Shown: positions 16,412 to 60,886 of the stretch, one piece after another
How the letters are laid out: each line of letters opens with the position of its first letter
How positions within the stretch are numbered: position 1 is the stretch's first letter
NCBI GenBank assembly: GCA_001692895.1
Contig: KV748194.1
Coordinates: forward strand, 2,166,746 to 2,230,745
Source of the DNA: Cenococcum geophilum 1.58
Lineage: Eukaryota > Ascomycota > Dothideomycetes > Gloniales > Gloniaceae
Direction of reading: 5' to 3'
DNA length: 64,000 nucleotides
Made by a program: the position numbers and the translations under genes
The notes under the pieces: model-generated
The model's input: only the letters and a program-made list of their open reading frames with translations
Told to the model about the DNA's origin: nothing
Database searches by the model: none

Positions 16412-16836
16412 TGTTATAAACGCTTTAAGTACGATGCTACGTCTACTTAGGGAAGAGACGAAAGAAGCTAGTTAGTTAATTCAGGCACGGTCCAGGATAG
16501 AGCCAATAGAACCATATAACGAGGAATAGTAACTAAGGTTATATAATATGCTACGTGTTAAATGAGGGGAACAAGAGGAACTTACGTACCTTATATATAA
16601 GACGTATATTACGTATAAGAAGGATTTTATAGGAGTACGGTTGTGTATTTAAGGACCCTTAGTCCCTACCTAGATAGTTCCTTCTTTATAATGATTCTTA
16701 GAATATAATTAGAGTTAATTTATTAGGCAACCACTCCACCAATTATTATTACTTATTAACTTTTATACTTATATTTCCTACACACCTAGCCTAATAATAG
16801 GACCTACCGTAGTTCTTACTACAAGGTTCCGTTATA
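16412..16836 (+). repeat. Element A 5' LTR
   Basis: It starts TGTTATAAACGC, aligns over its full length to 25374-25798 and is 425 bp long. The original ending CATTACA appears here as CGTTATA, consistent with RIP. The internal region begins TAATTACTACC, the likely decayed primer-binding site. Confidence 0.9.
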
Positions 16837-19800: not shown

Positions 19801-20844
19801 AGTTAGGAAAAGTAGAGGCCTATAGAACTAAAGAAAGCTAGTAGTAGAGCCTTAAACCCTTAAAGGAATTTAAGGACAACACCTAAATTTATAAATTAAA
19901 TAGTAAGATTAACAGTTTAAAGCGCTAATAGATAGTGGAGTAACGCAAAACTATATCTTACTAGTAGTAGTTAAGAGAATAGGACTACCTTATAGACAAA
20001 AGGAGGAACCTTACCTATTAGTAACAATTTTAGGAGATCTAATAGCCTATAGAGGAGGGATTATTAATATTAAAACAGGACCTATTTAGCTAACTATTAA
20101 GGGGAGACAAATTAAGATGTCTTTTAATATCCTACTATTAGGAATGCCTTAGTTATAGAAATATAATCTAAAGATTAATTAGATTATAGGTCAGGTTAAT
20201 ATTAGGGATACTTAATACTGTAAGATATAATAATAAGCTAAGTTAATATAGTACTAAGTTAGAGCAATATATAAAGAGACTAAGTAAGGCTTAAGTTATA
20301 TACTAAAGAAATACTATAAGTATGGTAAGAAACTATAGTTACCAAAAAGTAAAAAGCTGTTAGAGTATATAGCATAGAATTATAAAATAGAGTTAAAACT
20401 AGGAATAAGTCTAAAGTTCTTTCTAATCTATAAGCTTATTGAAGAAAAAGGGAGAGCATTAAAAGAGTTTGTTTAGAAGAATTTATAAAAGGGATATATT
20501 AAACTATTATAGTTATTAGCGGGTTATCCAGTACTATTTATACTAAAGAAAAATAGCAAACTAAGGCTGTATATTAACTATAGACAGTTAAACAGCATCA
20601 CTAGGAAGAATAGGTATCCTTTACCCTTAATTAGCGAAATTTAAAATAGAATAAATAACGCGCAAATCTTTATAAAGATATATCTAAGATGGGCGTACTA
20701 TTAGATTAGGATTAAGGAAGGTAATAAATAAAAGGCAGCCTTTAGGTTAAAGGAAGGACTATATAAACTATTAGTTATATAATTCGGGCTTATAAACGCA
20801 CTAGTAATGTTCTAGAAGCGTATTAACAATATATTAGGAGAATA

Positions 20845-22329
20845 CGTCAGGAAAACGGGAGGGTGGTAGGGGCTAGCCAGGGGCTAGCCCGGGGCTGGCC
20901 CGGGGTCATTTTAGCTGGATCCGCTGATCTGCTCATGTACACTTATTTACGCTAGCCCAGGGCTAGCCCGGGCCATATTAGCAACATTAACACATTTTAT
21001 ACGTTTTATACGTTTTATACATTTTATACATTTTTATAATATTTCCTATAGCTGCAATATGTATAATTATAATAAAATTCAAAATTAAAATTCAAAATTC
21101 AAAATCAAAAATTCAATTCAAAATCAAAATTAATAGTAGCTATAAGGGATATCTCTCGCAGAGTCTCCAAACGTCAATTGGCGGCGTTCCCGATGATCCG
21201 CGGCCATGTACTGATTTCCTAACTAGCCTAGTGCCTGTCCTGCCTGTCCTGGCCTGCCTACCTGTCCTACTGTCCTACCTGTCCTACCTGTCTACCTGTC
21301 TCCTACCTGTCCTACCTGTCTACCTGTCTACCTGTCCTACCGTCTGACCGTCCTACTTGTCGTGCCTACCTGTCTGTGCCTGCCGGTCGTGCCTACTTGT
21401 CTATGCCTACCTGTCTGTATCTGTAATTTGGGGGAGAGGTCGGCCGATCGAAGGCTCTGCTTGATTTAATTGCGATTAATTATATTAATTCGATCGTTCT
21501 CTCGGGCGTTCGCTGGCTGTACGTTTGAACAGTGGTCGTCTGGGGTGCTCCCTAAGAGCCTTGATTTCGATTTGATTTGGTAATGGGATGATATCAAGGC
21601 TCTAGTTCGATTCGATCGATCGATTGAATTGATCGTGTGTTACTGGCTGTCGTTTAAACGATTATCGTCTGGCTCTGGCGACGGTCGTCTGGTGGCGACG
21701 GTTCGTCTGGTTCTGGCGACGGTCGTCTGGTTCTGGCGACGGTCGTCTGGTTCTGGCGACGGTCGTCTGGTTCTGGCGACGGTCGTCTGGTTCTGCGACG
21801 TCGTCTGGTTCTGGCGACGGTCGTCTGGTTCTGGTCCACAGTCCTCTGGCTACCGTTCTGGTGCCTCCCTAAGTAGGGAGGATGTAAGGAAGGAAGGAAG
21901 GGTAAAGGTGGCATTTAGGTGTACAAGGGTATGCAAAGGCACGTGTAGGGCTGTCGGGAATATAGCGGGACCCGATGGTACTTCGGACGATTTAGATGAT
22001 AAGGAAATCAAAGTCCTGCTAGGAGCCTACTAGGAAGCCTGCTAGGAGCCTGCCGGAGGCCTTAGGATTTTAATACTAATAGCAATAAATATAATAATAG
22101 TAATAATATTTATTTTATAGCTATAAGCTAGCATAGTGCTAGCGTATAGCTCTAGGGCTTAGCTAATATGGCTAAAAGCTAGCCCTAGGCTAGGGGGGGT
22201 CAGCTAATATGGCTAAAAGCTGGCCCCGGGCTAGGGGGGGTTAGCTAATATGGCGGAAAGCTAGCCCCGGGCCCTAAAAACACTTTTAGCGAAACCAAAT
22301 TTCCTGCGCCACTTCCCGTTTTCCTGACG
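20845..22329. mobile_element. 1,485-bp TA-flanked TIR element inserted in the element A RT
   Basis: Terminal inverted repeats CGTCAGGAAAACGGGA (left) and TCCCGTTTTCCTGACG (right) are flanked by TA on both sides (20843-20844, 22330-22331). Removing the element and one TA joins the RT codons into EYLNEFVIVY, so boundaries are strongly supported. It encodes no transposase, so it is a non-autonomous element. TA duplication suggests Tc1/mariner-type mobilisation (inference). Inside are subterminal repeats containing GCTAGCCCCGGG, three about 41-bp direct repeats near the right end (TAGCTAATATGGC...), a CCTACCTGTC microsatellite (about 21236-21420) and a 20-bp minisatellite. It lacks RIP marks, unlike its host, so it inserted after host decay. 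Confidence 0.85.
21664..21833. repeat. Minisatellite, 20-bp unit
   Basis: About eight copies of a 20-bp unit (GGTCGTCTGGTTCTGGCGAC, with shortened variants) lie within the TIR element. The frames that run through it on both strands are artefacts of the repeat. Confidence 0.85.
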
Positions 22330-25300
22330 TACTTAAATGAATTTGTTATAGTATACCTTAATAATATTATTATCTACTTAATAACTAAGGAAGAATACGG
22401 GGAATACGTTAAATAGGTCTTAAAGAGACTATAAGAAAAATAGATGCTAATAGCAATTAAGAAATGCGAGTTCTTTACTAGGAAGACCGATTTTGTTAAA
22501 TTTATTATTAAACTAGGCTAACTCAGCATAGATCTAAAGAAAATTAAGGCTATAGTAAATTGGTAAGAACTAGAGAACGTTATATAGTTAAGATTGGTTT
22601 TAGGGTCTTGCAATTACTATAAAAGGTTTATAGCGCAATAGTTAAAGAATATTAAGCTATTTACGTAATTAACGAAGAAAGAAGAACTATAGGCATAGGG
22701 AGAGAAATAAAGGAAACTCTTTAAGAAAGTTAAGGAGTTATTTACCTAGGAGCCAGTTCTTAAGATCTATTAACCAGAATTAGAAACGGTTATAAAAACA
22801 GATATATTAGACTATATACTAGGGGCGTACTTTATATAAAGGCATTAAGATAGATGGCACCTAGTAGCATACTACAGTTAAAAGATAACACTACTAGAGT
22901 TAAACTATAACATCTATAACAAGGAGTTATTAGGTATAGTTACAGTATTAAAGAAATAGAGAGCATTCTTATAAGGTATAGAAAAACTATTTATAGTTAA
23001 GATAGATTATAAAAACCTAATGGGATTCCTAATAATAAAGGAACTTAACTAAAGATAGGTTAGATGGGCGGAGATGCTTATAGAGTACCATTTTAAGATT
23101 TAGTATACTAAGGGTATAGATAATACACGAGTAGATGCTTTAAATTAAAAAGCTAAACTATAAAATAACAAAAAGCCATTAGGGGCTTTACTGCGAAAAA
23201 ATATAGACGGATTAATTAGATATAATTATCTAAAAATTATAGCGACTTAGGAAGAACTAGAAAGAGTTTATAAGACACTAAAAAGCTTTTAGGTATAAAG
23301 GATTCTAAAAATATAACTAAAAGATCTATAAACGGATATATACAAAAATCAAAAAGTAAAGTATATCCTAAAAAATATAGTAGAGTAATTCGTAAAAGAA
23401 TTATATAAGGGATTAACTTAGGGATATAATAGAGCTATAGGCTTAGTGTTAAGACTCTAAGAGGAGTATATTATTAATGGAATTTAGAGAATAGCTAGGA
23501 GGGTTATAAAGGAATGCCTAAATTACTAAAGGAATAAACTAGTAAGGTATAAGCCATATAGAGGGCTACAACCTATTAAAACACTAGAGAGACTATAGGA
23601 GGTTATATTATGGGACTTTATTATTAAGTTACTAAAGTTAAAAGATTTTATTACCGGATAAAATTATAACGTGATTTTAGTAATAGCAGATAAGCTTATA
23701 AAGTAGGGATACTTTATAGCGTATATAGAAGAAATCTTAGCGGAAGATATCGCTAGAATCTATATTAAAGAAGTGTTTATAAGATATAGAGCATTAAGTA
23801 AGATTATATTAGATAGAGATCTAAGATTTATAGCAGTATTTTAGGAGGTATTCTTAGCGGAGTAAAGAGTTAGAGCAGTAACTTCTACTATATATTATCC
23901 GCAGACAGACGGTTAAATAAAAAGATTAAATTAGACACTAGAGCAGTATCTAAAGTATTATATTAATTACATATAGAATAATTAGGTATTGCTATTACTA
24001 ATTATATAGTTTACATATAATATAACACCTTAAGAGGGAATAGGTATATTACTATTTAAGGCAAATTATGGATATAAGCTAAGAATATCGTTATTACTAA
24101 GATAAGTAAAGAAGATAAGTAGTATAGCTAAAGAAAGAATAAAGATATTAATAAATCTTTATATAGACCTTATAGAATTAGTAAAGAGAGTATAAGAGAG
24201 AATAAAAAAGTACTATAATACTAGGAGATCTAAGGGACTAGATCTTAAGGAGGGAGATAAAGTATAGCTATTACACAAAAATTTTAAGAGTTAACGACTA
24301 AGCAAGAAGTTGGACTATGTTAGACTAGGACCTTTTAAAATTATATAGAGGATTTTACCGGTTATATATAAGTTAAACCTACTAGCTAAAATAAAGATCT
24401 ACCCTATATAGTATATTATAATGCTAGAGCCAGTATATGGGAATATTAAACTACTAGTTTATAAGGCAGATATGTATAGAGGATAAGAAGAAGACAAATA
24501 GTAAGTTTTAAAGATTGTTAGTTATAAGGACGTTAACAATAAAATATAGTATAAGGTTAAGTGGATAGGCTATAATAAGACTACCTAGAAACTACTAGAA
24601 AATTTAAAGAACGCTATAAGAAAGGTATAGGAGTATTAGAAGAGATTAGGTTAGGTAGCATTAAAAAAAAAGGATTACTAAAGAACGAGTCACCTAAGGG
24701 GGACCTAGAAAGAGCAGTTGCCGAACTACTTAAATCTATTTCCTTCTCTATTAGAAAAGAATCCGTTCTTTTATCGCAAAGTTCTTATAAACCTTATTCT
24801 ATAAGTTTCTACTCCTTAAAATAAACCTTTTTACGAACCTTCTTAAGACAAAGTAAATAGGTAGATGCCGCAATCTAAGTATTTAGGGCCTTCTATTCCG
24901 CATTATAAGAACGTTCTAATTTAGTAAGGGCTTAAGATAGTTTACTATCTAGCTGTATAGCAGCAGATTAAATATAAGACCTTAAGATAAATTAATTAGG
25001 GAACTAGATAACTATTAAGAGTAATAGGTCGCGTATATTTAGCATTAGAAGTAGAGTAAACGTTATAGGACGAACGAATATTTGCTTTAGTGTACTCTAA
25101 GTAAGAAAATGGTTGTTACGAAGATGGGTTCGCCAACGTAATATAAACTAACCCCTCTTTTAAATAATAAGAACACGGAGACGGTATAATCTTACTAAGA
25201 GATAATATTGCAGCAACAGTGCGAGCACGACGTTAGGCGTGTAAAGAAGAAATTGCTTTAGGTATAATAAGTAATAATATTAACTAAATTAATTAAACGG

Positions 25301-25373
25301 ATATTACACCTCTAGTAAACAACTTGGAGATATTTTAAATCTTTAAGGATAAAGATAGAAAGGAGGGAGATAG

Positions 25374-25798
25374 TGTTACGGACGCTTTAAGTACAATGCT
25401 ATATCTACTTAGGGAAGAAATGGAAGAAGCTAGTTAGTTAATTTAGGTATAGTCTAGGATGGAGCTAATAAAACTATATAACGAGGAATAGTAACTAAGG
25501 TTATATAATATGCTATATATTAAACGGGAGGAATAAGAGGAACTTATGTACCTTATATATAAGACGTATATTACGTATAAGAAGGATTTTATAGGAGTAC
25601 GGTTGTGTATTTAAGGACCCTTAGTCCCTACCTAGATAGTTCCTTCCTTATAGTAATTCTTAGAATACAATTAGAGTTAATCTATTAGGCAACCACTCCA
25701 CCAGTTGTTATTACTTGTCGACTTTTATACTTGTATTTCCTACACACCTAGCCCAATAACAGGACCCACTATAGTTCTTGCTATAAGGTTCCATTACA
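25374..25798 (+). repeat. Element A 3' LTR
   Basis: This 425-bp LTR starts TGTTACGGACGC and ends GGTTCCATTACA, followed by the AAAAA target duplication. Most differences from the 5' copy are transitions. Confidence 0.9.
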
Positions 25799-30864: not shown

Positions 30865-31032
30865 TATAAGGGGATTTTATAGACAGGGGGCTATAAGGAC
30901 ACGATTGTAGAATAGGATAGATTGGTAAAAGAGACGAATCCTTAAGGAGGTAAGGCCTCTAGGATCGTGGAGACTATATACTACGGGTACGTACCTCTAG
31001 CACGTAACCGGCAACCATCTAAGGGGCGTCCG

Positions 31033-31392
31033 TGTCATGGGACACCCCCGTAACACCTTGCACACGTCTACCTATTTCCACCGACTTAGCAATTAGAGAC
31101 TAACCGTAAAATGGTAATCTAACGGCAATCTAGCGGCAATCTACGGCATTCTGCTATATTCTGTTAAGTTCTACTAAATTCTGCTAAGTTCTATTAGGAC
31201 CACGACCTAAACCCTATTCTACCCTATGCACATATTAACTAAGCAACTAAGTTAATAATATATGCCCTTTCTTCCTAATCTCCTACCTTTTCTTCTTACG
31301 TAACGTCTTAACCTTATTATATAGTTCATATATATAGCTTAATAATATCTACTTCGTTATATATTATTACCACTTATACTCACTCCGTGACA
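31033..31392 (+). repeat. Element D 5' LTR
   Basis: 360 bp, TGTCATGGGACACC to CTCCGTGACA. It is nearly colinear with 36622-36981. Confidence 0.9.
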
Positions 31393-31427
31393 CTACGTTG
31401 CGTTAACTACTTATACTACTACCTAAA

Positions 31428-34400
31428 ATGGAAAACGCACCTAAAGCCCCCGTAACGGCCGCCGATATTATATCCATCCTCTAAAAACAAATAGTAAGTA
31501 TATAGAAGTCCTTTATAGAGGCCCTTAAATAACAATAAGTTACCTTAACTTAATAATAAGCCGAATAAGAAGCACGGCATTAGAAAATAATGGAAGCCCT
31601 TTAAGAAGAAGTCCGTACCTTTAAGATGCCTACGCTAGAACCCTAAGACCGAACACTATCTCCGGAGATAAACACGCGAAACGCAAGTCCTAAACCTATA
31701 GTAGCTATTTACCCCAAACCGACTACCGCACTATAACAATCCGAGCGGTTACCTAACCCCCTAGTATTTACTGGTAAACAACAAAAGCTCCAATTATTCC
31801 TAAGCTAGCTAAAAAATAAGCTAACTGGTAACGCTAACTATTACCTAACTAAAGCTAACCAACTCTGTTACGCCCTAAGTTAACTAGGAGGAGAGGCAGC
31901 TAACCTTATTAAACCTCTTTAGCCAACCTTAGTATAAAGCCTAGTTGTACTTCTTAAAGCCTTATATAGTAACCTAAACCGCTAAGCTACTACCTAAAGA
32001 AAGATAAACTACATAGCTTAAGGAACGAAAAGTTTCCTAGTATACTTCTCCAAATTTAACCGTTACGCAAGGGAAATAGGCTGGAATAACTCCGCACTAA
32101 TTAACAGCCTCGTTAAATCTTTAAGCCCTAAACTAAAAACCTCCCTAATAGGCGTAGACCTACCGGGAGCCCTTAACGCCTACGCAAATGTCGTTAATAA
32201 ATAGTACAATAATATACTACGCCTGACACCGAAACACGCCCCTTAATACAATATAATAGCCCTATAAACGTCTACTAAGTTATCTTAGCCTAAGCACCCT
32301 AATGTTATGGATATTAACACTAGAACCCTAGAGTACGCCCTACTAGGGTCCCCTAAATAAGAAAGACGTATTAAGCTAGGCCTCTGCTTTAAGTGCGGAA
32401 GTAAGGACTACATCTTAAAATATTATCTCGTCTCCTTACCTACGCCCTAAAACAATTTATAAACGGCTAATACTAGCAGCCGTTTACCGTATTAATCTTC
32501 TAGTTACCGTCCCTAATCTTTACTTAGTTCTAGCCCTGCGTCTAGTAAGCACTATTTATAAGGATAAAGCTATAGCTAACGTCCTATAAGAACCCCACCC
32601 TAATCGCCTCTAAAAGGAAGGTCTTAGAGCTAAGTCGCTCTCTAGGACGGCTCTGCTATAGGATTTTATTAAATACATTTAACGTTACAAACTCCGACTC
32701 TTAGGACCGTAGCATAACTATTAACTACCGTCTTTAGTAGAATGGTTAATAGGCTAACGCTTAAATCCTAATTAATATAGGAGCTAGCGGTATAGGATTT
32801 ATTAACAAGATCTTTATATAAGATAATAGTTTTACCCTAACCCTCCTTAACCGGCATATTAACGTATTTAGATTTAATAGCAAACGCACTATCTTAGGCT
32901 GTATTACCTACGTAGTATTCCTAAGACTCTAATACCTAAACCACGAAGAATTAATTAAACTTTTTATTACCACCCTAGGTTACTTAGTAATCCTTAGACA
33001 ACCCTAAATAAAGCTATATAAGGTAACTATTAATTAGGACAACCTTAAGCTTTTATTTACCGCCTCCTGTTATAAGCAGAAGTGCCTTATAACTCGCTAC
33101 TTAGACCCAGAACTAAAATCTAAAAAACCCACTAGGATCCACCAGTCTAAAATTTCCACGACTGTCCACCCTGCGCCTAAAGAATCCACTAGATTCTACC
33201 AACCTAGGATTTTTACTAAATTCCACCGACGTAAGATTTCCACCAATATCTATCAAGGATCTAAAAATTCCACTAAACCCCACAAATAGACCCTAAGTAC
33301 TACACCGCCCTAAGCTAAGCAGAAGCTTAAGCTTAATATACAAAAATACTAGAAGGACTAGTATTCTACTATAAAAAGGATTCTTAAAGAACCCGAACCC
33401 AAATCTAATACTAACTCCGTACCTAATACTAAACCTAAACCTAAGTAAGAAACTACAAGCAATCTAAGCGAGCTCGGCACTCTAGATATCCGCATAATTA
33501 GAGCTACCCTATTAGCGTAACTTGCTAAGAAACCCGAGCATATAATCTTCGCTATTATAATAGCCAATATTAAGAAGGCCTTAGCACTAAGGAAGCACAC
33601 TAACCCTACTATAAAGGTACCAATAGAGTATTATTATCGCCTAGATGCGTTCTTATAAAAGGAAGCCAATAAGCTACTAGAACACCGACTATATAACTAT
33701 AAGATTATACTTAAAGAAGGAAAGCAGCCCGGATTTAGACCCTTATATAGGATGTCCCAAAATAAACTCTAAGTGCTATAAAAGTATTTAGACGAGAACC
33801 TAAGCAAAGGATTTATTAGAGCAAGCTNGTCGCCTATAGCCGCACNAGTNATCTTNATTAAGAAACCCAGCGGNGGTTTACNCTTCTGTGTAGACTACTA
33901 AGCTCTTAACGCCGTTACTGTTAAGAACTAATACCCGATCCCGTTAATATAAAAGACGCTAAACTAATTAAGTAAGGCTCGTTACTACACAAAGCTTAAT
34001 ATTATCTCTACATTTAACCGTCTCCGTATTACAAAAGGGGATAAATAGCTTACTATATTTCGTACCCGATATAGACTATTTAAATACTTAGTAATACCCT
34101 TTAGCCTCACAAACACTCCGAGCTCGTTTTAACATTATATAAATAATACCCTGCGCCCCTACCTAGACATCTTCTATACTGCTTATATTAATAACATCCT
34201 AATATATAGTAATAACCTGACCGAATATTGGAAACATGTTGACCTTATCCTATAAGCCCTATACAGAGCTAGTCTATAATTAGATATAGATAAATGCAAG
34301 TTCTATAAAACGGAAGTCCTATACCTTAAACTCCTTATTTCTATAAACGGTATATAAATAGACCTGAAAAAAGTTGAAGTAATTATAAACTGGTAAGAAC

Positions 34401-36610
34401 CCGAGAACGTTAAGGACGTAAGAGCCTTTATAGGATTCGCTAATTTCTACTAATGGTTTATTAATAACTTCTTCGCCCTAGTTTTACCTTTTATAGCTCT
34501 AACCTAAAAGGATAAAGTCTTTATCTTTAATAAGGAATGCAAAAAGGCCTTTGCCTATCTAAAGGTTATATTTACTACTACGCCCGTACTCTAATACTTT
34601 AACCTAAATTAAATAAGTATTATAGAAGCCAACTTATCTAACTACGTTACTAGAGGTATCCTGTCTTAATATAATAAGGATGGAGTATTATACCCTATAG
34701 CATACTTCTTAAAACGACTAAGCCTAGCCAAATATAACTACGAGATCTACGATAAGGAATTGTTAGCTATTATTAGATACTTTAAACAATAGCGACCTAA
34801 ACTAGAAGGCGCCGGATTTCTAATTAAGGTCCTTAGCGACTATAAGAATCTATAGTACTTTACAACTATAAAACAGCTAAGTCATTGTTAGGCCCGCTAG
34901 TTAGAATATCTATCTCGTTTCCGATTCTTAATTATATACCGCCTAGGCGTCTAAGGTTAGAAGCCTAATGCCCTAACCCAACGCTTATAAGACGCGCTAG
35001 CCCTAAAAGAAACGCGCTCTTACTAAAATTAGACCCTACTTCGCCCTAAACTATTTAACCCTCCTACTAAAGATCTTATGGTACTTATCCTTAAAATAAC
35101 TAATCGATTAATTAAGCAGATTATAGTTAACGAATACCCAAATAATGAGTTTATCTAAGAGACGCTTAAGCTAATATAAAATAGCACTAGACGCTCTAAA
35201 AAGATTTCTCTAAGTAAATATAAAGCCTGTGGAAACCGCTTGTATTACCAGAACCGTCTAATTATCCCTAATTACAATAAGCTTAAGCTTAAGCTCCTTA
35301 AACATATATATAACCTACTAGTAGCTAGCCACCTAGGCCGAGGAAAAACCCTAGAACTGCTCTAACGAGAATACTATTGGCCGAATATGTATAATATGAC
35401 ATAAAGGTATATCTCTAGCTGCCATATCTGCCGACGAGCTAAAGCTTCGCATAAGACGTACAACGGCCTTCTAAAGCCACTGCCTGCTTCGGACTAAAGA
35501 TGGAAGGATATCTTAATTAACTTTATTGTTGATCTCCCCGTAAGTAAAGGCTGTATAAATATTATAGTAGTTATAGACCGACTATCTAAAATAAGACACT
35601 TGATCGCCTGCCCCAATATATTAACACCTACCGTCGCCTAGCTATTCCTAGATTATATATAGAAACTCTATAGACTTCCCGAAACGATTATCTCTAATAA
35701 AGGTAGCTAGTTTATCTCTATATTTTAGGAAGAACTAACTACCCAACTCCGCATTAAAGTACTATTGTCTATAGCATACTACCCGGAAACGGATAGTTAA
35801 ATAGAATGTGTAAATGCTATAATGGAGCAGTATATTCGGATATGCACGTTATACTTATAAGATAACTGGATTGACTGGCTTACATTTGCTAAGTTTACGG
35901 CGAATAATTCTGTTTTAGAAACTATAAAGGTCTCCCCGTTCCTGGCTAACTACAGCTAGCATCTATAAATGGGTTTTAAACCCTTTAGTAACGTTCCTCG
36001 CCCCACTTATTAAGCCTTATAAGTTGTAGAAGCAAACAAATTCGTAGAAAAGATAGAGGAACTATAATAGTTCCTTACTAACGAAATAATATGGGCCCAA
36101 TCTGTCTATAAAGCCGCAGCGAATAAGAAATAAACCCTAGCACCAGCTTACCAAATTGGTAACTTCGTCTAGCTAGACATAAGAAATCTAAATATAAAAT
36201 AACCTGCTAAGAAACTTAATTGGAAGAACGCTGGCCCTTATAAGGTCGAGAAGGTCGTCTCTTCTCACTCCTACTAATTAAAGCTCCCTAATACGGTTAA
36301 AATCCACCCCGTATTCCACACGTTAGTTCTCCGTCCTGCTGCCCCCGTATTAGACGCCCTACCTAAACAGATACAGGACCCTCCCCCACCAGTTAAAGTA
36401 GATGGTAAGAACGAGTACTTTGTTAAAAGAATTAATAATATTAAGTATAATAAACGGAAACGCTAATATATGTATCTTATGAAATGGAGAGGCTTTACTA
36501 AGTCCTTATAGGAACCTGTTAACTCTATAGGACTTACATAAGCCGTAAAAGACTTTTACGAACTCTACCTAGAACTATTACAGCCCCACCTTACAGAAGC
36601 TCAAGTTTAA
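31428..36610 (+). pseudogene. Element D gag-pol remnant
   Basis: It starts MENAPKAPVTAADIISIL at ATG 31428 and stays in one discernible frame to TAA 36608-36610. A Gag zinc knuckle (CFKCGSKDY) is near 32390. The RT block FCVDY...LNAVTVKN is near 33880, and the active site YINNILIYS near 34190 has Asp codons changed to Asn. RNase H, integrase and a chromodomain-like tail (MKWRGFTKSL near 36480) follow. A polypurine tract, AGGGGGGG, directly precedes the 3' LTR. Not functional. Confidence 0.85.
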
Positions 36611-36621
36611 AGGGGGGGTAC

Positions 36622-36981
36622 TATTACGGGACACCCCCGTAATACCTTGTATACGTCTACCTATTTCCACTAACTTAGCAATTAGAGACTAACCGCAAAA
36701 TAACAATCTAACGGCAATCTAGCGGCAATCTACGGCATTCTGCTATATTCTGCCAAGTTCCACCAAATTCTGCTAAGTTCTGTTAGGACTACGACCTAAA
36801 CCCTATTCTACCTTATGTACGTATTAACCAAGCAACCAAGTCAACGATATATGCCCTTTCTTCCCGATCTCCTACCTTCTCTCCTTACGCAACGTCTTGA
36901 TCTTATTATACAGTTTATGTACATAGCTTAATAATATCTACTTCGTTATATATTATTACCACTTATGCTTACTCCGTAACA
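36622..36981 (+). repeat. Element D 3' LTR
   Basis: 360 bp, starting TATTACGGGACACC (from TGTCA-type ends) and ending CTCCGTAACA. GTCCG follows. Confidence 0.9.
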
Positions 36982-49107: not shown

Positions 49108-50258
49108 TATTCTTAGAGGAGAGTAGGACTTGTTTACTAATGGCGAAGTGCTTAGCTAGGTAGTAACAATTGTAGTATTTTACCTAAAGCTTTTAGGCGT
49201 GTATTATTAACGCTACCGCTACCTTATATATAAGGCGCAGGCGTTATAGATGTATCTTTATAAGTTAAACATTAATTAACTTAAACCCCTCCCTACCTTA
49301 CTAGGCGTCTTAAACGCTATCTAGGACTCCGTCTAAAACGTTTAGTAGCTAGCTATAGGCGAGCTTAATAGGGGAACGCTTTATTATAGTATAGACCTTA
49401 GAGTTATAGGTAAAGGCTATTTCTTTAAGTAGGGAGGCCTAATTAAACTATTCCTAGTTTGTAAATATATATAGATATACCTTAAGCTCCTAGTTCTAAC
49501 GCTCTATCTAACTATTTATTTATTAGTAGAATATAGTGCTAAGTTTATATTAAACGCGGAGATAGTAGTATATAGTGCTTTAGTACTCGCTTATAAATAT
49601 ACTACCCCTATTAGAGATAATATTATCTAGAGGCCCTATTTACGTAAAGACTCTAAATAAAAGTTCTATAAGTTGCGTAGCATTAATTTTCTTACGTACT
49701 AGATAGTAGCGCACTAGCTTTATAAAATGGTCTATAAGAATAAAAATAGAGTTATACTTTACGCTATTAGAAGTCTTAAACCCTAGAAAATCTATAATAA
49801 AGTTAAGTAAATAATAATATTAGGCTCGGGTAGGGACCTAAAGAGGCTATAGCTTACTATAGGGTTTATAGCGGCGCGATTTAAAGCGTTAGTAGGTATT
49901 ATAATTATCTAGGTATTTATAGAGGTTATAGGTAAGGCCGTTCTAAGTATACTTTTACGTAATTACCTTAAAAGTATAGTTAAAACTATAGTAGCCGCCT
50001 ATAGAATTGTCATAATTCTGCTTAAGGATCTCCTATTATAATAGTATATAATTTAGCACCTAAACCTTATTATTTTACCTTAGAAGTCCTTAATTATTAA
50101 GGGTATAGTTCTTATTACTAGTAAAAACTTATTTTTAGGTTAACTAATTATATATAGAGCGTATAAAGGCGTCTCTTTTTTATACTCTATAAATAAAATT
50201 AACTAGTAACTTAGGGGGGTATTCTAAAAATGCCGGTTTAGCTAAAGTAGCTACTACT
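49108..50258 (-). pseudogene. Element G fragment 2: integrase core
   Basis: Minus-strand reading gives FIIDFLGFKTSNSVKYNSIF, IDHFIKLVRYYLVRKK, GPLDNIISNRGSIFISEY and, beyond, HFAISKQVLLSSKNI, the Gypsy integrase catalytic core. It joins fragment 1 (60892 onward) across element C, and fragment 3 across P. Confidence 0.8.
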
Positions 50259-50259
50259 A

Positions 50260-50524
50260 TGGTGGTGTGATTTGGCCCCTAGATTTAATATCTAGATTAG
50301 GCATAGCTTTGGGAGAGCCCAGGCCTTCTATAAGTTATATAGATTGGTCTAAAGCCTTTAGAGTCTTCAATAACTTAGACAGGCACGAGGGATATAAAAT
50401 ACACTCTTTTCTTCTCTTCTTACTAACTGCTTTCCTACTAATTTTCACTAACTGACTACGACCGACCGACAGACCTAACAGCACTGTGACTTACTATCTA
50501 AGAGGGACCGCGTATACTACTACA
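50260..50524 (+). repeat. Element C 5' LTR
   Basis: It starts TGGTGGTGTGATTTGG and ends ACTACTACA; 265 bp. Just inside is TATGGCATTCCACGTGG, a plausible primer-binding site starting with TGG. Confidence 0.85.
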
Positions 50525-50996
50525 TATGGCATTCCACGTGGGGACGACGGCAAGCTCTTTGGATTAGAAGTCCAGCGCTATATACATAGGAGACGTATAG
50601 GAACGTGCTGCAGCCACAGAAGGACTAAAAACTGTTAAGTCACCATTACCGGAAGCCGTTAAGTCACTAATAGGTACAGAAATTAAGCACGGAACTACTA
50701 GCGACGTACGCGCAGATACTACTATTATTAAGATAAGTTAACAATACTCTTAGAGATTGTTATCTAAGATATATAGTAGACGGAATAGACGACTAGGAGT
50801 AGGAATATAAGTACGGGGTACGGTAGGACGGAGGATAAAAGAGAGGGTTATAATACATTAGGACCAGCAGAAAGAAGTCTTTAATTTTTTATTTATTATA
50901 TTTGCAACGATCTATATAATTTTTCTAGCATTTATATAAGCCTCCCTTAAATTTATAAGAGTAATAGTAATAGGACCGATAAAGGGAATACTAGGG

Positions 50997-53900
50997 ATGC
51001 TAGGCCCATTCTATAATGACGGCGAAGAAGAAAGTAGGCAGCCTGTTAACCTATAAAGTTTTCCTAACCTAGAGGATGCGGTACTAGACCTAACTTCTGC
51101 AACATCTAGAACTAATAACCTTTAGTAAAAAGAGGATAAGAACTAGGAGGTTAACTTACCTATCCTAGGAGAAACTGCTAGTCCATTACCTTATAATAAA
51201 CTACTAATAGAATAAGATAAGGTATATATTATAGCCTAGCCTATACTAGCTCTAGGAACTCTAGGGACTCCTTACTTTATAGAATAAAACGTATTATAAT
51301 TTATCGAACAGTACAAGCGACTATATATTCGGCACCGTGTTACAAACAATAAGAAGTATTAAGGACTTTTAGAATATTGCGACTATTAAATAGGGACCTA
51401 GATCTAAAGTCTACCTAAGTTTATTATTAGTAGATAGACGGAACTTATAGGAAGGCTTCGGACAGACTACCGAGGAAGTAACTACTTTTAATAAGTTAAA
51501 ATAGTAGAATTCTTGGAAGCGTATATACTATAGTGCAGGAATAACCCACCTAGTAGTATACGCGAGTACTATAGATAATTCACACTAATTTCCTAAAAGG
51601 TTACTAAAGCTAGTAATTTGGAAAACCGTAAATAAGGATACTGGTTTGCAAAAGGACTCCCATTTAAATATTAAAAATATACTATAACTAAGACAGGAGC
51701 TAACCCGGATAGATAAGAGTCTTTTAACTTTTACCTGCTAAGGAGGGCTGTAGAAGACAGGCTTAATTTATATAAGGGCGTAGACTGCTTATTAATAATG
51801 AACCCTAAGGAGCAAGGTCTCCGTTAGCTGGTTAAACAATTCTATAAGTAGTAGCCAGCTATATTAAACCAGAGAGATACTACTCTTTAGCCGCCTATAG
51901 TCTCTTAGCTAAATAAGTTAGTAAGTGCCCGTTAAATAACCTAAGAGACGGACCCTAAGCTAGAGAACCTTACTAGTTAACTCCGGAAGCTTAATCTTAG
52001 GATAGTTAAATTAGTAAGCATTACATCTTTAATAACGTTCCTTAATAGGATTCGCTAAGACCCGATATAGTATATATAGCTCCTAAATAAGGCGTTAGTG
52101 CGTTAAGAATAAGCAGGTTTATAACTAGTAACGAATAATAACGGACTGCTGCTATTCTATAAGGGGGCGCTATAAGAGCGATATAAGCTAGGCCTAGGAA
52201 GGTATAGAGGATTAGGAAACTTTAGTATATACTAGGTATAAGCTAAGACGTGTTATAGATATAGAGGCCCTTATTATTTTATTAACTAATACCTAGAGCT
52301 TTAAGAACTAGTTAGCCGGGGGTTCCTATATATAAATAAGAACAACCGAATCTGCACTAAAATATATTAGCGCCTAGGAAATCCACTCCTGTATTTACCG
52401 AGCAACTATTAAATTTAGTTTATTAAAGACTAGCTAAGGCAGAATGCGAATATTAATTCTAATGTGACGGTAATAGGTATCTAACTAAACGCGTCCTTAG
52501 TAGAGCTTGTAGAAAGCAATAGCGCTAAAAGTAAAGAAGAGCTTAGCAAGTCCTGAGAAGATGTGTATTAAGTAAAGTCGGTATATGTTAATCTAGTAGG
52601 AGCAGCAACCTAGTCGTAGCCTATGACATAGTTATACAATCTTAGGAAGCCGAGAGGAGACGTAAGGGTAACAAAACTACCTCTAAAACCGACTAGTTTA
52701 TAACCGGTAATAGTTTGAAATATATAACTAGGAGGATATATCTAAATCGCACTATAACTATAGTGGTAGGCCTCCTAATTACTAGTAAGTAATAAGGAGA
52801 CTAATAAAATGGACTATGTTAAATAGCTAAAAAGAGAAGTAGAATAAGGAACGGAAGTAACTGCGACCGCTAAAGCACCGCGACTAAAGCCGGTTAGGAT
52901 AATGGATATACTAAAAGGGAACATCCTAAGCTTAACCGTAATGGTGGATAAGATCTTATTAAAAACTATTAAAGTTACTATTAGTGACTGCCTTATGTAT
53001 ATACCTAAAGTCGCAAGGTTATTCTTTAAGCCTCTTCCGCCACCTTTTATAGAGCCTTACCAATAAAAGCAAGAGGGTGTTAAGGCATCTATATTATCGG
53101 CGTACCTGATATTTTATGCTAATTAAGCTGGCTTAATAACTATAGAGGTAGACCAGATTAAACGGGAAGCAGAATTCACCTAGTTTTGACGATGATGTCT
53201 AAAGGTAGAAGCACAGATAGGAGACAAAAGGGTTAAGTGCTTAATTAACTCTGGAGCGGAGCTTAACCTTATTAAGGAAAGTGTGGCTCTTAATACGGCT
53301 TGCCGATATTAAGTCTGCCCCTATAGTTATAGGGCGCATGTCTAACGTCTGCAAATAGGACTTAGTCTAAGTTCATTGGATTAGTATATGCAGCCCCTAT
53401 AGTTATAGGGGACGTCTTAATATTTACGACTTTTATTACTGTGGGAGAAATGTTATATAAGGTAATACTTAGTAAGCCGTAGTTAGTAAGGGCTAGACTA
53501 GTAATGTAGCGAACCGCAATAGGCCAGGTATCTTATATTATTTAATTAGAAGATAGCGGAGTTAAAATAAGGTTCTTAATATTTTATAAGGACGTAATAT
53601 TCCTTAGACTAGATAAAGGAATTAGTATAGGCAGTAGTTTAGAAAATATGTAACCGGTATAACCGCTAAGATTATATCCGGGGTTACTTATAACCTAGCA
53701 TATTAGAATAAAGAGGATACTAAGGATAAAGAGGAGGGAAATAAGGTGCGACTTCAATAAGGGCGTCTACTATTTTAGATATCCGCTGAATAGGGTAATT
53801 AACGGGAAGAAGAGTATAACGCTGGATAGAGAGAGCTTAACAGCAAAACGTTAAAGGAAGTCCTAAAGAAGTACTTGGGAGGAAGGTAGAAGCTAGTGTT

Positions 53901-56900
53901 TAAAGCAAAGGCTAGATCCCTTATATATTAAATATCAAAAATAACGGATTTATTTATAATATAAATAGAAGGCTATAGGAGTAAGGCCTGATAGAACGCT
54001 ATAAGTATAGCAACTGCGTATAAATGAAAGGCAGAGAAAGTCCGCCTAGTTAATTTGTTAGCACCAGACAGAACGGTTATAGGAGAAATAATATAGTGGC
54101 GAGAAGTGGCCTTGTATTAGTAAAAGGCGTCTATTTAAGGGTTGCCCCTTAGTCTATATAATTATTTCCTTAAGCCGCGGTATACTAAGCTGGCCTATAG
54201 TATACGGCTAAAGCCAGAATAATTAGAGCGCGTGATTATAGGGGACCTTTAGCTAAGAGAATGAGAAATCTTTAAGGCTATATTATTTAACCGAGAAGAA
54301 GCTCTAGTATAGGAGTTCTCTAAGATGGGTCGTGTTAGCAGAGACGTAACTCTACTATTAAAGATTAAGACTGTACCGTATAAAGTATAGTAAGTGCTAA
54401 ACTTCCCTATACTAAGGGCCCTATAAGGGGAAGTAATAAATATATTATAAAAACGACTAGCTTAAGGGACTCTAGAATATTGCGAAAGCCTATATAGGAA
54501 TTTATGGTTTCTTATAAGTAAAAAGGAATATAAGAAGTACCGGCTAATTAACGCGGCGATAAATATTAACTAAGTGACTATTAGGGATGCAAATCTACCG
54601 CTATATGCTAATGAGTTTTCTAAGGAGTTTGTGGGGTGTAAGGTTATATCTCTAGTTAACTTCTTCTCTAAATATAACTAATTAGAGCTAGATGTAGAAA
54701 GCAGGAACCTAACGGCCTTTATAATACCTTTAGGACTTCTATAATAAATGACGGTACCTATAGAAGGAATAAATTCGGTAGCCTAGTTTATAAGGACAAT
54801 TACTAAGATTCTAGAGCGACATATCCCATACTATACCTTACCGTTTCTGGATAATATTATAGTAAAAGGACCATAGATAGTATATAATGGAGAAGAGAGC
54901 CTTTTAGGCGTGCGTAGATATATTCTAGAATATATTATATAGCTAGATAGAGTACTTGCAGATTTAGAACGAGCTAGGTATATAATCTTAGGCGTAAAGT
55001 CTTATTTCTGCAAGGACGAGATTATAGTGGTTGGTTACCGCTATAATAGAAAGGGGCAATATCCGGAAAAGTCAAAAGTTATAAAGATTATTTACTAGAG
55101 AGACTATAAAGACGTTATATCTGCCTAAGTATTTATAGGAGTTATTATATATTACTAAATATGGATAGAAGACTTCGTAATAAAAGTAGAGCTAATCTAC
55201 TAACTACTATAAGTAAACGTTCTGTTTGTATAGGGTATAGAGCAAATAGCCGCTATAAAGACTCTAAAGCATATAATTACTACAGCACCCGCGTTAGTTT
55301 AGCTGGATTATAGTAAGGGGGCTAGGCTAATTGTTCTCGCCGTTAACGGATGTAAGAATGGGTAGGGATGCGGTCTTATGCAACTGGACGTATAAGGTTA
55401 TCGCTACCTATGTTAATATAAGAGCGGCATCTAGTCTTAAGTGGAGTAGAAGTACGATTTAGGAAAGCTTAAATATTAAGCATTACTGTATGTATTAAAG
55501 AAGTGTCGAGTGTACCTATACGGCGTCCGCTTTACAGTTAAGACGGATGCAAATACCTTAGTTATATAACTAAATTATGCTGCCACCGATTTACCAGGAG
55601 CCTTAATAATATAATAGCTAGCATAGATTTAGTTATAGGACTTTAATATTAGGTATGTTCTAGGGAAGAAGAATAGCCTAGCTAATGGACTATCATAATA
55701 ACCACTAGATGGCGAACGACCTAATGAGCCGACTAAGGATATTAAAGAGTTTATTAACTGCGAACTAAGTGCTTTAGATTATACGGCTAGCCCAATTAAA
55801 ATAGAGGTGGATCTGCTACTAGAAGACTCGTATTTAGGGGAGTTTTAGAAGATTATAAAATGGCTAGTGACCTTATAACATCTAGAAGAAATAAATACTA
55901 AAGAATTTAAAAAGTTTAAATGATATACGCTAAAATTCCTAGTGCGCAATTAACAGCTCTTCCGCTAATAGTTAAAAAATGTGCTAATGTAAAGGGTAAT
56001 TAATAACGAAAATACTTAGTAAGAGATCATCAAGAACCTTTATAATTGGAGTGGATATTATAGATAAAAAGGAATATATTAAAGAGTCTTAAATTAATAT
56101 TGGTGGCTAGGACTATGGGATTAGATATTGTAGTATATTAAGTTGTGCCCGTAATGCTAGGAACGACAGCTAGAATAAAAAGAAGAAGTAATACACCCTA
56201 TATAGGAGTCCATTTTATGGCACTAAGTAACTATAGATATTATATTTATGCTAATAACTCATCTCGGTTTCTAATACCTAGCTACTGCTTAAGAATATAT
56301 ATCTAGATGGGTGGAAGCTCAAGCCCTTCAGAAAAAGGATATAAAAAGCGTGGCAAAGTTTCTTTATAAAGACGTTATCTATAGATAGGGAGTATTCGGA
56401 CAGCTTTCTGTAGATAGTAGTGGAGAAAATGCTAATATAACCGCTGCGCTTGCGGAGCTCTATAATATTAAAAGGGTTATAGCTTCTGTATATCACCTAT
56501 AGGGATAAGGCTTAATAGAGCGAGGATATAAGCCTATAGTAGACGCTTTAGCAAAGATAGATGGCTTATAGCTGGACAATCTCTATACTATTTTATAGGT
56601 AGATAAAACAACCGTTAAGTAACCTACGGGAATAACGCTAGTGAGAGTTATATGCGGATATAAGTATGTCCTTTTTATTAAACTTTATATACCTACTTAG
56701 CAAACGCTGCCCTAGTAAACAGTCTGGACCACTGTAGAGCTACTAGCACTTTATACAAAGCAGTTTAACCAAAGAGATATAGATATGTAAGAGGCTATCG
56801 CGCGTATAAGACGACTAAGGGAGGCAAATAAAGAATATTTTAATGATATCTGCTATATTCGCTAGGACGTATTTAAGGTTAGGGATATAGTTATGCTTTA

Positions 56901-57285
56901 TAACGCGTAACTTAAGTAAGACTATTCTAGCAGTTGTAAGTTGGATTTAAAGTGGCTGGGCCCGTTCCGTGTACGTAAGAGTCACCCTTATAAAGGATGG
57001 TACTTAATTAAGGATCTTAATGGTACACTGTTCCGTAATTAAACTCCTAGAAATAGATTAAAGAGGTTCTATTAATAATAGATATCTAAAGTCTACTAGG
57101 AAGACCAGCTCAACTAATTAGGCGGAACTATGCTATAAGAAATAATAGTAGAGCCAGAGCCTAAGAAAGATATGCAAAATCCACTAGTATCGCAACGCCG
57201 CGTAGTTTAAGAAGTGCGCGTTTTAAAAAGATCGGTTAACAGAACTAAGTACGAAATATTTAACTAGGGGACAGTTAAGTTCTAC
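50997..57285 (+). pseudogene. Element C gag-pol remnant
   Basis: Gag starts MLGPFYNDGEEE at 50997 and includes a CYRYRGPYYFINQYLEL knuckle-like block near 52,250. The protease motif VKCLINSGAELNLI near 53,235 has the catalytic Asp codon changed to Asn. The RT region runs from RLINAAININ near 54,540 to the active-site block FLDNIIVKGP at about 54,844. RNase H is near 55,320. Integrase follows with SRWVEAQALQKKDIKSVAKF near 56,310 and LIERGYKPIVDALAKIDGL near 56,515. This FLDD..VKGP type forms a distinct fungal Gypsy group. All copies of stops are RIP-like. Confidence 0.82.
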
Positions 57286-57599
57286 GGTGGGGGAGGGGAT
57301 GTAGATAACAGCCGTGCAATTCTTTTATTTGCCGTATTTTCTAAAGCTCTTTCTATTGCGCGTTCTTATTTGCTTTTTTAGTTAGGAATCTAATGCGTAT
57401 TAATAGTAAGGTAAGGGTAGAAGAATGTTTACAAATAACCACATAGTATTATTCACTGCAAAGATATTAGTTCCGCTTACCGCCTTTACTAAGCTAATAG
57501 CGATTTTCTATGCCGGGCATAGAAAATTATAATTGGTCTATTTAACGATTAGAGCCGGCAGAACTCTATACTGCTACCTAGATTTAGTAGACTATTTAG

Positions 57600-60500
57600 A
57601 TTAGAAAACCCTATTTAGAACTTTACCTTTTTGCCCTTAATAAACCTTAGAGATAATTATAATTAGCTAAAGCAGAAACTAAGCAGAATTAAGAATAACG
57701 GTATACTTATTATATCTTTATCTAATAGACCACTGGTCCTCTATAAAGGAGCTAAGTAATAGATTAGTGACGTCCTAATAGAAGTCTAAGGCTTCGCGGT
57801 TAATTAGCGTCGAGTAGTGCTTATCTAAATCTATAACGGGATTTTGCTCTTATAAGAAAACTACGTAAATATAGCTAGTGTAGTAGTTAATTTTATTAAC
57901 CAAGATAACGGACTATAAGTATCTCTAGGAAAGGACGCATTTATATTAATCTTTAAGGACATCTCTAACGTTAGTAAAATGGCTGAAGATTAGAGAAACC
58001 AATATAACGAAGCTAGAGAAACCATCCGAAAGGCCTAGGGATAAGATGCTCTTAACAGACCGCTAAAATACGCAGTCTCCTATAATTTCCTCTCTGTCGT
58101 TTAAAAGCTCGCAATATACCTACTTCTTAAAGTTATAGTAAGAGTTAATGAAGCTCTAATCGATAGGCTCGAATATCTAGGATATGGTATTAAGAATACT
58201 ACTTAACTACAGCCGACCGATTTTACGCTCGTATTTAAGATATTAGAAAGGGCAATATTAGACCAGGTGGTGAATAAGTATGGTTTAAGAAGACACTTAA
58301 CTAGCTTTCTTATTCTAAATAAGGACCTACTGCTAAGAAGTAGGAGACTAACTACCGTGGGACTAGAGGTCACTAATATCGGAATTAGATAAGTAGGAGA
58401 GAGCTTAGCTCTTATACTGCGAATATATTTACGGCATGCTTCTAACGTAATAAATCCCTTAGCCTTTTAGCCATTAACACCTGTTTAAGGAGGAGGCGTT
58501 AGTATTATACCAAGCCCGTCTTAATAAGGATCGCCTATATTAGTTGACTCACCTTTATTATCTATAAACGAGAGCATTCTCGCAGCTAGAACGCCTGTTG
58601 GCTCGCCCCTATAGCTGCCAGTATCTTTATTAAAAAGGAATCTAAAAAGGGGGCTAATAATTACTTATCTGGAAGTAAGAGGGCTAGGAGTAGAATTAAT
58701 ATTTAATAAGAACATTATTAAGCTAAAAGATAATGTGGAGTATATTAAGGAGGCTATAGATACTATAGTGGTACTCTGTGTAAAATAAGGATGCGACTGT
58801 AAGGATAATGTGCTAGCATATTTTAAGGTGTCCCTAAATTAAACTACTAAAATCGAACTAATAGAGGTTATAAAGCTCTTACGCAGCTAGTATAGGGCGG
58901 CTGGTTTTAATCTGGAGATATATAAGGTCTACTAGATATATACTTAAGTAATAGGAGGATATATAGGTTTGGCGATAAAAGGTTTAAACTATACCGCACT
59001 ATATTACAGACTCCGTTTAATATATTACGCCTATAATTACCTTAGCACTATAAAGACCAATTCTACTATATACTCCTAGTTTAGAAAGGCTTATAGACCT
59101 CTAGTTCCGTCCAATTCCTTAGAACTATATAAGTTTATTTATAACTTAGCGCTAAGGTTTTCCTATAATAGAGAGGCTTTGCTTAATTGGATGATATTAT
59201 TAAAAGACTAAGAAGTATAGCAGCGAGAAGGATCCGTGATTTTAAACGTGTTTAGATGGTGGTGGGATTTTAGCATCTTAATAATAATTAATAAGGAAAT
59301 GCGTATATACCGCCATTATCAGCGTCTAATTAATAGGCGGCTAAATTATGGCTAATTAAGAATAATGGTCCACGGTTTTTACTAGCAGCTAATAAAATAA
59401 GATCCTCAGTATTATTATCTCTATTGCGCTTTTAGGCCTAATAATTAGTAGCAACTCATTTTCTACCCTTATTATGCGAAATTCGCGGTTAAAGGAGACT
59501 CTACAGCGTTCCGCTATATTAACGTTAATATTCCCTTACTTCTTAAAAGTGGATACGGTGCCAATATAATTTAAGGAAGCGTTTCTTTAGATAATAAGAC
59601 TGAGGACAACTGCATAATTATTCTACCCGGCATATATTATTACTTAGAATTATAGTAGGCAGATCTTAAAGCGTGAGGATCGACTAAGGGCAACGGATTT
59701 ATGCATAAAATCTCAGACTATAACTAGACTACTAAGGATGTAGAGAAATATGCGACCGACTGGGTAGCTTAGCCTTATAAGAAAGGAGATGTGCGTATAA
59801 CTATGCCTTACCTTCCTTATAGAGCAAAAGGACCTTTAACTAGGACCTAGCAAATAATGCTACCATAGTTCGTTGGCATTTAGGATAATTATAATAACCT
59901 TAAGGTTACGGAAGGAGGAACCTGGGTAGAGCTAGCAGATATATACTAAGACTTAAAAGCGCCGCCCTATACGCCATCTAGACATGCCAATCTTTATGGC
60001 GTAATCCTATACTGCTTCCCTACTGCAGTTAAACTTATAGCTGCTAGCGCCTTATTTAACGCTCTTTTGGGTAGACGGCAATGGGATTCTCCGGCGGTAA
60101 TTTAAGATTATAACCTTTTTCTTAATAGCAATAGGAACGAAGTTAGGAAATGGATATATTCCTACCGTCTTAGGGCTGTTAAAAACTATAAGGATGCGTT
60201 TTAGCTTATATATACAACCGAAATAGAGCGCTTTAATAGCCGCTTATACTTCTACTACGTTAATAATAGAATCAATCCTTTAACTATTGCAGTAGACCTA
60301 AGTAGAGTGCCCCCAGTTGTTGCAGAAGGACAGAGTTATGCGGAGTTACTTAAAGAATTATAGGATAGAACTAAGCAAATAGAAGGGCGCGAAAGAGCTA
60401 TATTATCTGAGAGCCGCTAGTCTAAAGTCTCTTATGCTGCTCAGCTAAATAGATAAGAATGGCCTCATTTAACCAGAACGGAGTCTCCTCGTTTACTATC

Positions 60501-60615
60501 TTGGGTTTGTGGTAAGGGCAAGGAACGCATACAATTACCTACCGCGCCTTCGTTTTAAAGATAAGGAGTTTTAGAGTTTTGGAAGTCGTTAGGGGATAAC
60601 AACTTAGGTGGGGGA
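57600..60615 (+). pseudogene. Extra ORF of element C with a 2OG-Fe(II) dioxygenase-like domain
   Basis: One plus-strand frame, interrupted only by TAA/TAG/TGA at RIP-type positions, runs about 1,000 codons from roughly 57,600 to the 3' LTR. The first half is unrecognised. The second half has FRWWWDFSILIIINKEMR (59257), GDSTAFRYINVNIP (59494-59535), SVSLDNKTEDN, ILPGIYYYLE, KKGDVRITMPYLPYRAKGP (near 59779-59835) and a following Arg. This is the order HxD ... GD-x-H ... R of double-stranded beta-helix 2-oxoglutarate oxygenases. The three iron-ligand codons (59515, 59521, 59818) read Tyr, Asn, Tyr; His, Asp, His are each one RIP-type transition away. PhyH-like or TET/JBP-like membership cannot be settled by eye. 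A short coiled coil and Trp-rich tail follow. Confidence 0.55.
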
Positions 60616-60621
60616 GGTATA

Positions 60622-60886
60622 TAGTAGTGTAATTTGGCCCCTAGATTTAATATCTAGATTGGGTATAGCTTTGGGAGAGCCTAGGCCTTCCACAAGTTAT
60701 ATAGATCGGTCTAAAGCCTTTAGAGTCTTTAACAACTCGGATAGGCACAAGGGACATAAAATACACTCTTTTCTTCTCTTCTTACTGACTGCTTTTCTAC
60801 TAATTTCCACTGACTGACTACGACCGACCGACAGACCTGATAGTACTGTGACTTACTATCTAAGAGGGACCGCGTACACCACTACA
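60622..60886 (+). repeat. Element C 3' LTR
   Basis: 265 bp, TAGTAGTGTAATTTGG to CACCACTACA, preceded by a polypurine tract GGTGGGGGAGG (60607-60617). CTACT follows. Confidence 0.85.

Follow-up and report, generated by a model that had tools for sequence, protein, structure and literature searches.

A Ty3/Gypsy retrotransposon of Cenococcum geophilum with a third gene predicted to encode a PhyH/DUF1479-fold oxygenase

Ty3/Gypsy elements of the orchid Phalaenopsis, 25 kbp in size, carry an AlkB-type 2-oxoglutarate (2OG)-dependent dioxygenase with in vitro N6-methyladenosine demethylase activity (PMC9289625), and fungal DNA transposons, Helitrons included, carry TET/JBP dioxygenases for which an action against methylation-based silencing has been proposed (PMC12730594). 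A further point of reference is brtn, an extra antisense open reading frame (ORF) between pol and the 3' long terminal repeat (LTR) of Boty-like Gypsy elements of Botrytis cinerea (PMC8365987, PMC7264820). Here, we analyzed a stretch of 64,000 nucleotides from Cenococcum geophilum 1.58 (contig KV748194.1, positions 2,166,746 to 2,230,745; hereafter, the window), which contains a Gypsy-type element with a third ORF in addition to the genes for its own copying. Our preferred reading, to which we assign a probability of about 0.5, is that this third gene encoded a PhyH/DUF1479-fold oxygenase whose active ancestor aided the element by oxidising a macromolecule, likely in connection with silencing, and that repeat-induced point mutation (RIP) followed.

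The element spans 50258-60886 (~10.6 kb) in a Ty3/Gypsy layout. Its 5' LTR (50258..50524) and 3' LTR (60620..60886), both on the forward strand and 267 nt long, are direct repeats that are 91% alike. Comparison of 275 nt from each gave 25 transitions and 6 transversions, and since all 6 transversions lie inside the 8 upstream flanking bases that were also taken into the alignment, the LTRs proper differ by transitions alone. The pol region (reverse transcriptase (RT), RNase H and integrase; 53875..57174, forward strand) holds many stops. It was delimited with tblastn as the single stretch to which P0122 aligns at 68%, P0122 being a metagenomic pol relative without stops in which Pfam recognizes RT, RNase H and integrase domains. 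In the window's own pol frames, RT_RNaseH (E = 1.5e-11) is followed by Integrase_H2C2 (E = 1.1e-05), both above the Pfam cut-offs; with E values of 0.032 and 0.16, respectively, the integrase core and the protease miss theirs, and RT and gag gave no Pfam match in these damaged frames. The assignment to Ty3/Gypsy follows from the paired LTRs, the order RT-RNase H-integrase (RT by way of P0122) and the many dispersed copies, at least 41 for pol (the best 41 of 3133 candidates) and at least 48 for the third ORF (the best 48 of 334 candidates). The LTRs, the pol domains and the ORF coordinates together bear out a sequence-only reading of the window, which had placed a third ORF between integrase and the 3' LTR of an LTR retrotransposon.

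This third ORF, a PhyH/DUF1479-like 2OG/Fe(II) oxygenase frame, runs from 57712 to 60564 on the forward strand and comprises 950 codons with 47 internal stops. The same reading had estimated about 1,000 codons; the ORF itself stood, and its length proved slightly shorter once trimmed to the alignment with P0002, a 950-aa protein from a JGI metagenome contig. Over 57577-60615, the claimed frame (1013 codons) contains 50 stops, versus 76 to 122 in the other five frames. For database searches the ORF was translated with an X at each stop, and P0002 was the sole database protein to match it at an E value of 1e-3 or better among 7997 scored candidates. The two are 66% identical, and because P0002 aligns over 950 residues without a gap, the match is beyond chance. 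A PDB sequence search with the stop-as-X frame returned nothing useful, and those with P0002 and with profile A2 gave chance matches only. The start codon reads ATA (Ile) in the window; among 30 copies from the same genome (window included, the sample used for all counts of own-genome copies below), this position is Met in 12 and Ile in 18.

A search with P0002 residues 480-800 yielded 183 proteins at E values up to 10, the best 120 of which all scored at 4.2e-87 or lower. Organism names are attached to 14 of these 120 homologues, one being a Sphagnum record and 13 being fungi, which we take to be Pezizomycotina. Two AlphaFold models predict a double-stranded beta-helix, as had been proposed from the sequence, with PhyH/DUF1479 oxygenases as the top Foldseek matches, and PhyH was recognized above its cut-off in 5 of 9 homologues other than P0002 (23.4 to 41.4 bits). 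DUF1479 proteins lead the fold matches, yet a Pfam scan of P0002 up to E 10 gave no row for DUF1479. TET/JBP and AlkB were likewise missing from that scan and from the fold-search matches listed, which excludes neither. P0002 was unmatched in NCBIfam, and 2 of 3 other homologues gave weak matches far below the cut-off. The features of the 2OG/Fe(II) oxygenase superfamily are thus found as a metal-binding triad and a basic residue in the homologues and as a predicted double-stranded beta-helix, the triad being lost in the window. As modeled, the ORF product begins with a helical region, and a Cys/His motif precedes its catalytic domain of predicted PhyH/DUF1479 fold. The motif, CxC-x43-CxxH (58792..58941, forward strand; P0002 residues 361-410), is a possible zinc site: in 119 listed homologues, P0002 itself excluded here and in all residue counts below, C361 and C363 occur in 111 (8 gaps), C407 in 118 and H410 in 117.

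At the catalytic residues, the window departs from its homologues. On the forward strand, the codons of His602 (59515..59517), Asp604 (59521..59523) and His703 (59818..59820; P0002 numbering) read Tyr, Asn and Tyr, exactly at the positions named beforehand, and that of Arg713 (59848..59850), judged from its position to be the probable 2OG-binding residue, is a stop. The homologues have His602 in 119/119, Asp604 in 118/119 (Asn in P0041), His703 in 118/119 (Tyr in P0056) and Arg713 in 119/119; the expected His/Asp/His ligands and downstream Arg are hence borne out by natural homologues, used in place of a de-RIPped consensus. The proposed order HxD, GD...H, Arg holds for HxD, His and Arg, whereas the "GD" is looser, with Asp at position 693 in only 32 of 119 homologues. 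Among the own-genome copies, His602 has become Tyr in 20/30, Asp604 Asn in 30/30 and His703 Tyr in 30/30, so that the full triad is intact in 0/30; Arg713 is kept in 15/30.

That two ligand positions read Asn and Tyr in every copy, including a copy without pol (L009, below), could mean that the ORF was already catalytically dead when the element spread and served a structural or binding role. We consider this very improbable, as RIP-prone sites elsewhere in the ORF were fixed in the same manner: all 30 copies read Tyr at 2 of 32 His sites and Asn at 7 of 24 listed Asp sites, the ligands counted. Ligand loss therefore resembles the loss at other His and Asp sites, and RIP suffices to explain it. 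P0002, moreover, keeps Asp604 and His703, as do nearly all homologues. Death of the enzyme before RIP is accordingly disfavored, and the suggestion that RIP-type changes altered the ligands of a probably intact ancestor agrees with both the retention of the triad in homologues and the loss at other RIP-prone sites.

RIP causes transitions, not transversions. Counted at codon positions 1/2/3, transversions between the window and L009 number 14/16/60 (p = 1.1e-10), and those that separate it from L010, which like the window copy lies in a full-length element, 8/4/33; over the pol tail, the latter pair differs by 5/4/11. The total over all pairs is 2202/1690/9239, which comes from related copies and is no independent test. 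The computation shows that the ORF was under purifying selection before RIP broke the copies examined. Since pol and the spacer between pol and the ORF are also homologous between copies, the simplest reading is that the ORF resided in the element before the copies diverged and was selected there.

Of the 30 own-genome copies of the ORF, 29 follow an integrase tail and precede an LTR, the exception being L009 on contig C42, and the third ORF lies downstream of pol in all of the best 41 of 3133 pol candidates (window included). In 38 of these 41, a listed ORF copy follows within 2.5 kb on the same strand; the remaining 3 are also followed by the ORF, in one case over just 195 residues. Stops interrupt every one of the best 48 of 334 ORF candidates and of the best 50 of 273 candidates in two genome scans, L009 having the fewest (33) among the 48. 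PhyH matches in the genome number 12, 9 of them above the cut-off; all 12 are free of stops and lie away from the listed ORF copies, so they are other genes.

These data bear on an alternative origin, in which a Gypsy lineage captured an ordinary host oxygenase gene once and carried it along, the enzyme acting, for example, on a small molecule, unrelated to silencing. At least 13 named fungi have records of homologues, which, in a tree built by a quick method and with a composition warning for the window sequence, show some grouping by taxon, with the window and P0002 as one isolated branch. Hydroxylases of amino acids and of natural products are among the nearest folds, which fits such an origin, as does L009 (L009/L046, G000:C42:1175063-1177888), where the ORF is joined to a 247-bp spacer match, most of the spacer, with no pol and only LTR matches of up to 27 nt in ~8.4 kb upstream and ~4.5 kb downstream. 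L009 is alone in its subfamily among 40 scored copies, the next copies being 79% alike, and may be a host relic, part of another element or a remnant. A useless passenger, however, should decay, and the 8/4/33 transversions reveal selection between copies that both carry the ORF; retention of the ORF by all 41 pol copies and the lack of an intact host copy among the best genome matches of both scans likewise speak against simple capture. We regard this origin as possible, albeit at well below even odds.

At L046, about G000:C42:1178930-1179348, lies a sequence of ~400 bp that matches its own opposite strand, is repeated genome-wide (best 40 of 647 candidates) and resembles a small inverted-repeat element.

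The ORF may also be modular. The spacer (57284..57711, forward strand, the pol end being approximate), most of which is also present upstream of the pol-less L009, contains a 25-nt palindrome (57503..57527, strand not assigned), likewise present in L009. One subfamily has C-G in place of G-C at one of its pairs, a double change that looks like a single event; its predicted RNA fold has a z score of -1.84, with 9 of 200 shuffles folding equally well, and Rfam gave no match within the window. In the pol tail, L014 and L021 stand as far from the window as the rest of the 8 copies compared (20 and 21 transversions, against 14 to 21), but their spacers differ from it by none (against 6 to 9), and the two are probably recombinant elements with an exchanged spacer-ORF module. 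Together, L009, L014/L021 and the palindrome suggest, from sequence comparison, that the ORF and its upstream region form a unit with its own expression signal.

A further alternative is that the whole family is no host gene but has long travelled on mobile elements, Gypsy or others, in many ascomycetes; the exchange of spacer plus ORF between subfamilies that L014 and L021 suggest speaks for it. The small number of named records (14 of the best 120 proteins, one of them a moss) and the multicopy state of the ORF in Cenococcum geophilum are in keeping with this idea. Scans of viral contigs and prokaryote genome contigs, however, produced 47 and 69 pattern matches and 0 relatives of the oxygenase family, and the partial grouping of homologues by taxon is a second count against it; we judge it unlikely.

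Returning to the selected, silencing-related oxygenase that we prefer, the ancestral ORF product would have been an active Fe(II)/2OG oxygenase, translated separately with a start codon of its own, and its oxidation of a cellular macromolecule would have benefited the element. Most likely, that target would have served silencing as a mark or a factor, be it RNA, DNA or chromatin, and RIP would afterwards have broken the copies examined. By analogy with the orchid AlkB (PMC9289625) and the fungal TET/JBP enzymes (PMC12730594), counter-silencing is what would most naturally lead a retrotransposon to retain such an enzyme. The sequence-only reading had itself offered an anti-silencing role as a guess, and such a role is a proposal here too.

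Several observations weigh against this proposal. The Foldseek TM-scores are modest, with query-normalised values of 0.15-0.24 and 0.26-0.38 among the matches listed. P0002 reaches 17.1 bits for PhyH (PF05721) against a cut-off of 22, the other 4 of the 9 further homologues lack any Pfam match at E 0.1, and the window frame, with stops as X, has no Pfam match. We take the nearest folds to be small-molecule enzymes or uncharacterised proteins, and none of the nearest solved folds among the matches listed is known as a nucleic-acid or histone demethylase. The copies of the ORF-bearing element are strongly RIPped, at best a little more mildly than two further elements in the window (TpA/ApT ratio, 1.50-1.64 versus 1.56-1.80; CpA+TpG index, 0.51-0.63 versus 0.37-0.44), and the enzyme gave them no protection. 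Other genomes yielded no contig joining pol to the third ORF; P0002 and P0122 come from contigs of different length (11780 and 10869) and hence give no evidence of a shared one. The probable exchange of the spacer and ORF between subfamilies qualifies the evidence for selection inside the element, and the activity and substrate of the enzyme are themselves predictions.

A bolder version, which we advance tentatively and at low probability, is that an LTR retrotransposon took up an undescribed fungal oxygenase family of PhyH/DUF1479 fold as a selected counter-silencing enzyme, and that this enzyme oxidised a mark on nucleic acids or chromatin in a way that differs from TET/JBP and AlkB. The presence in a retrotransposon of a fungus of a superfamily branch other than TET/JBP and AlkB would imply that mobile elements recruit 2OG oxygenases repeatedly, and would direct attention to unstudied fungal enzymes that may act on a silencing mark.

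The window holds further repeats. A second element-like unit of ~9.3 kb (16412-25673) carries 300-nt direct repeats that are 90% alike. Its interior has ~29-30% GC apart from a stretch at ~20800-22300 of mostly 40-60% GC, in which the reading frames contain short repeats. A third unit of 5.9 kb (31021-36909) has direct repeats of 300 nt (87%), and a further 164-nt repeat pair lies at 30867 and 45569.

In the open PMC library searched, we found no description of oxygenase cargo like the third ORF, the closest reports among those listed being PMC9289625 and PMC12730594. The remark that no such enzyme was known as cargo of an ascomycete Gypsy element carries a rider: an AlkB-type 2OG dioxygenase is published for orchid Gypsy elements (PMC9289625), in a host outside the ascomycetes and from another family. 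The Botrytis gene brtn shares with the third ORF an added position between pol and the 3' LTR of an ascomycete Gypsy element; brtn is antisense, whereas the third ORF is in sense, and identity of the two was set aside on this ground (PMC8365987, PMC7264820). Relative to the PhyH/DUF1479 oxygenases nearest in predicted fold (YbiU 4rgk, 7twe and Candida Gig2 6akz; 11-14% identity in fold alignments), the third ORF differs from PhyH (PF05721) and DUF1479 proteins by its extra N-terminal helical region, its Cys/His motif and its carriage on an LTR element. The orchid elements similarly bear an extra 2OG/Fe(II) dioxygenase ORF presumed to serve the element (PMC9289625); the present element, in contrast, is from an ascomycete, measures 10.6 kb, has a PhyH/DUF1479-like predicted fold and is known from sequence and models. 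The TET/JBP cargo, too, places a 2OG/Fe(II) oxygenase on a fungal transposon, but in that case on DNA transposons and from a different oxygenase family (PMC12730594). The published cases of transposon-borne oxygenases that we came across are AlkB in orchid Gypsy elements and TET/JBP on DNA transposons of fungi, and a PhyH/DUF1479-like oxygenase in a Gypsy element differs from both.
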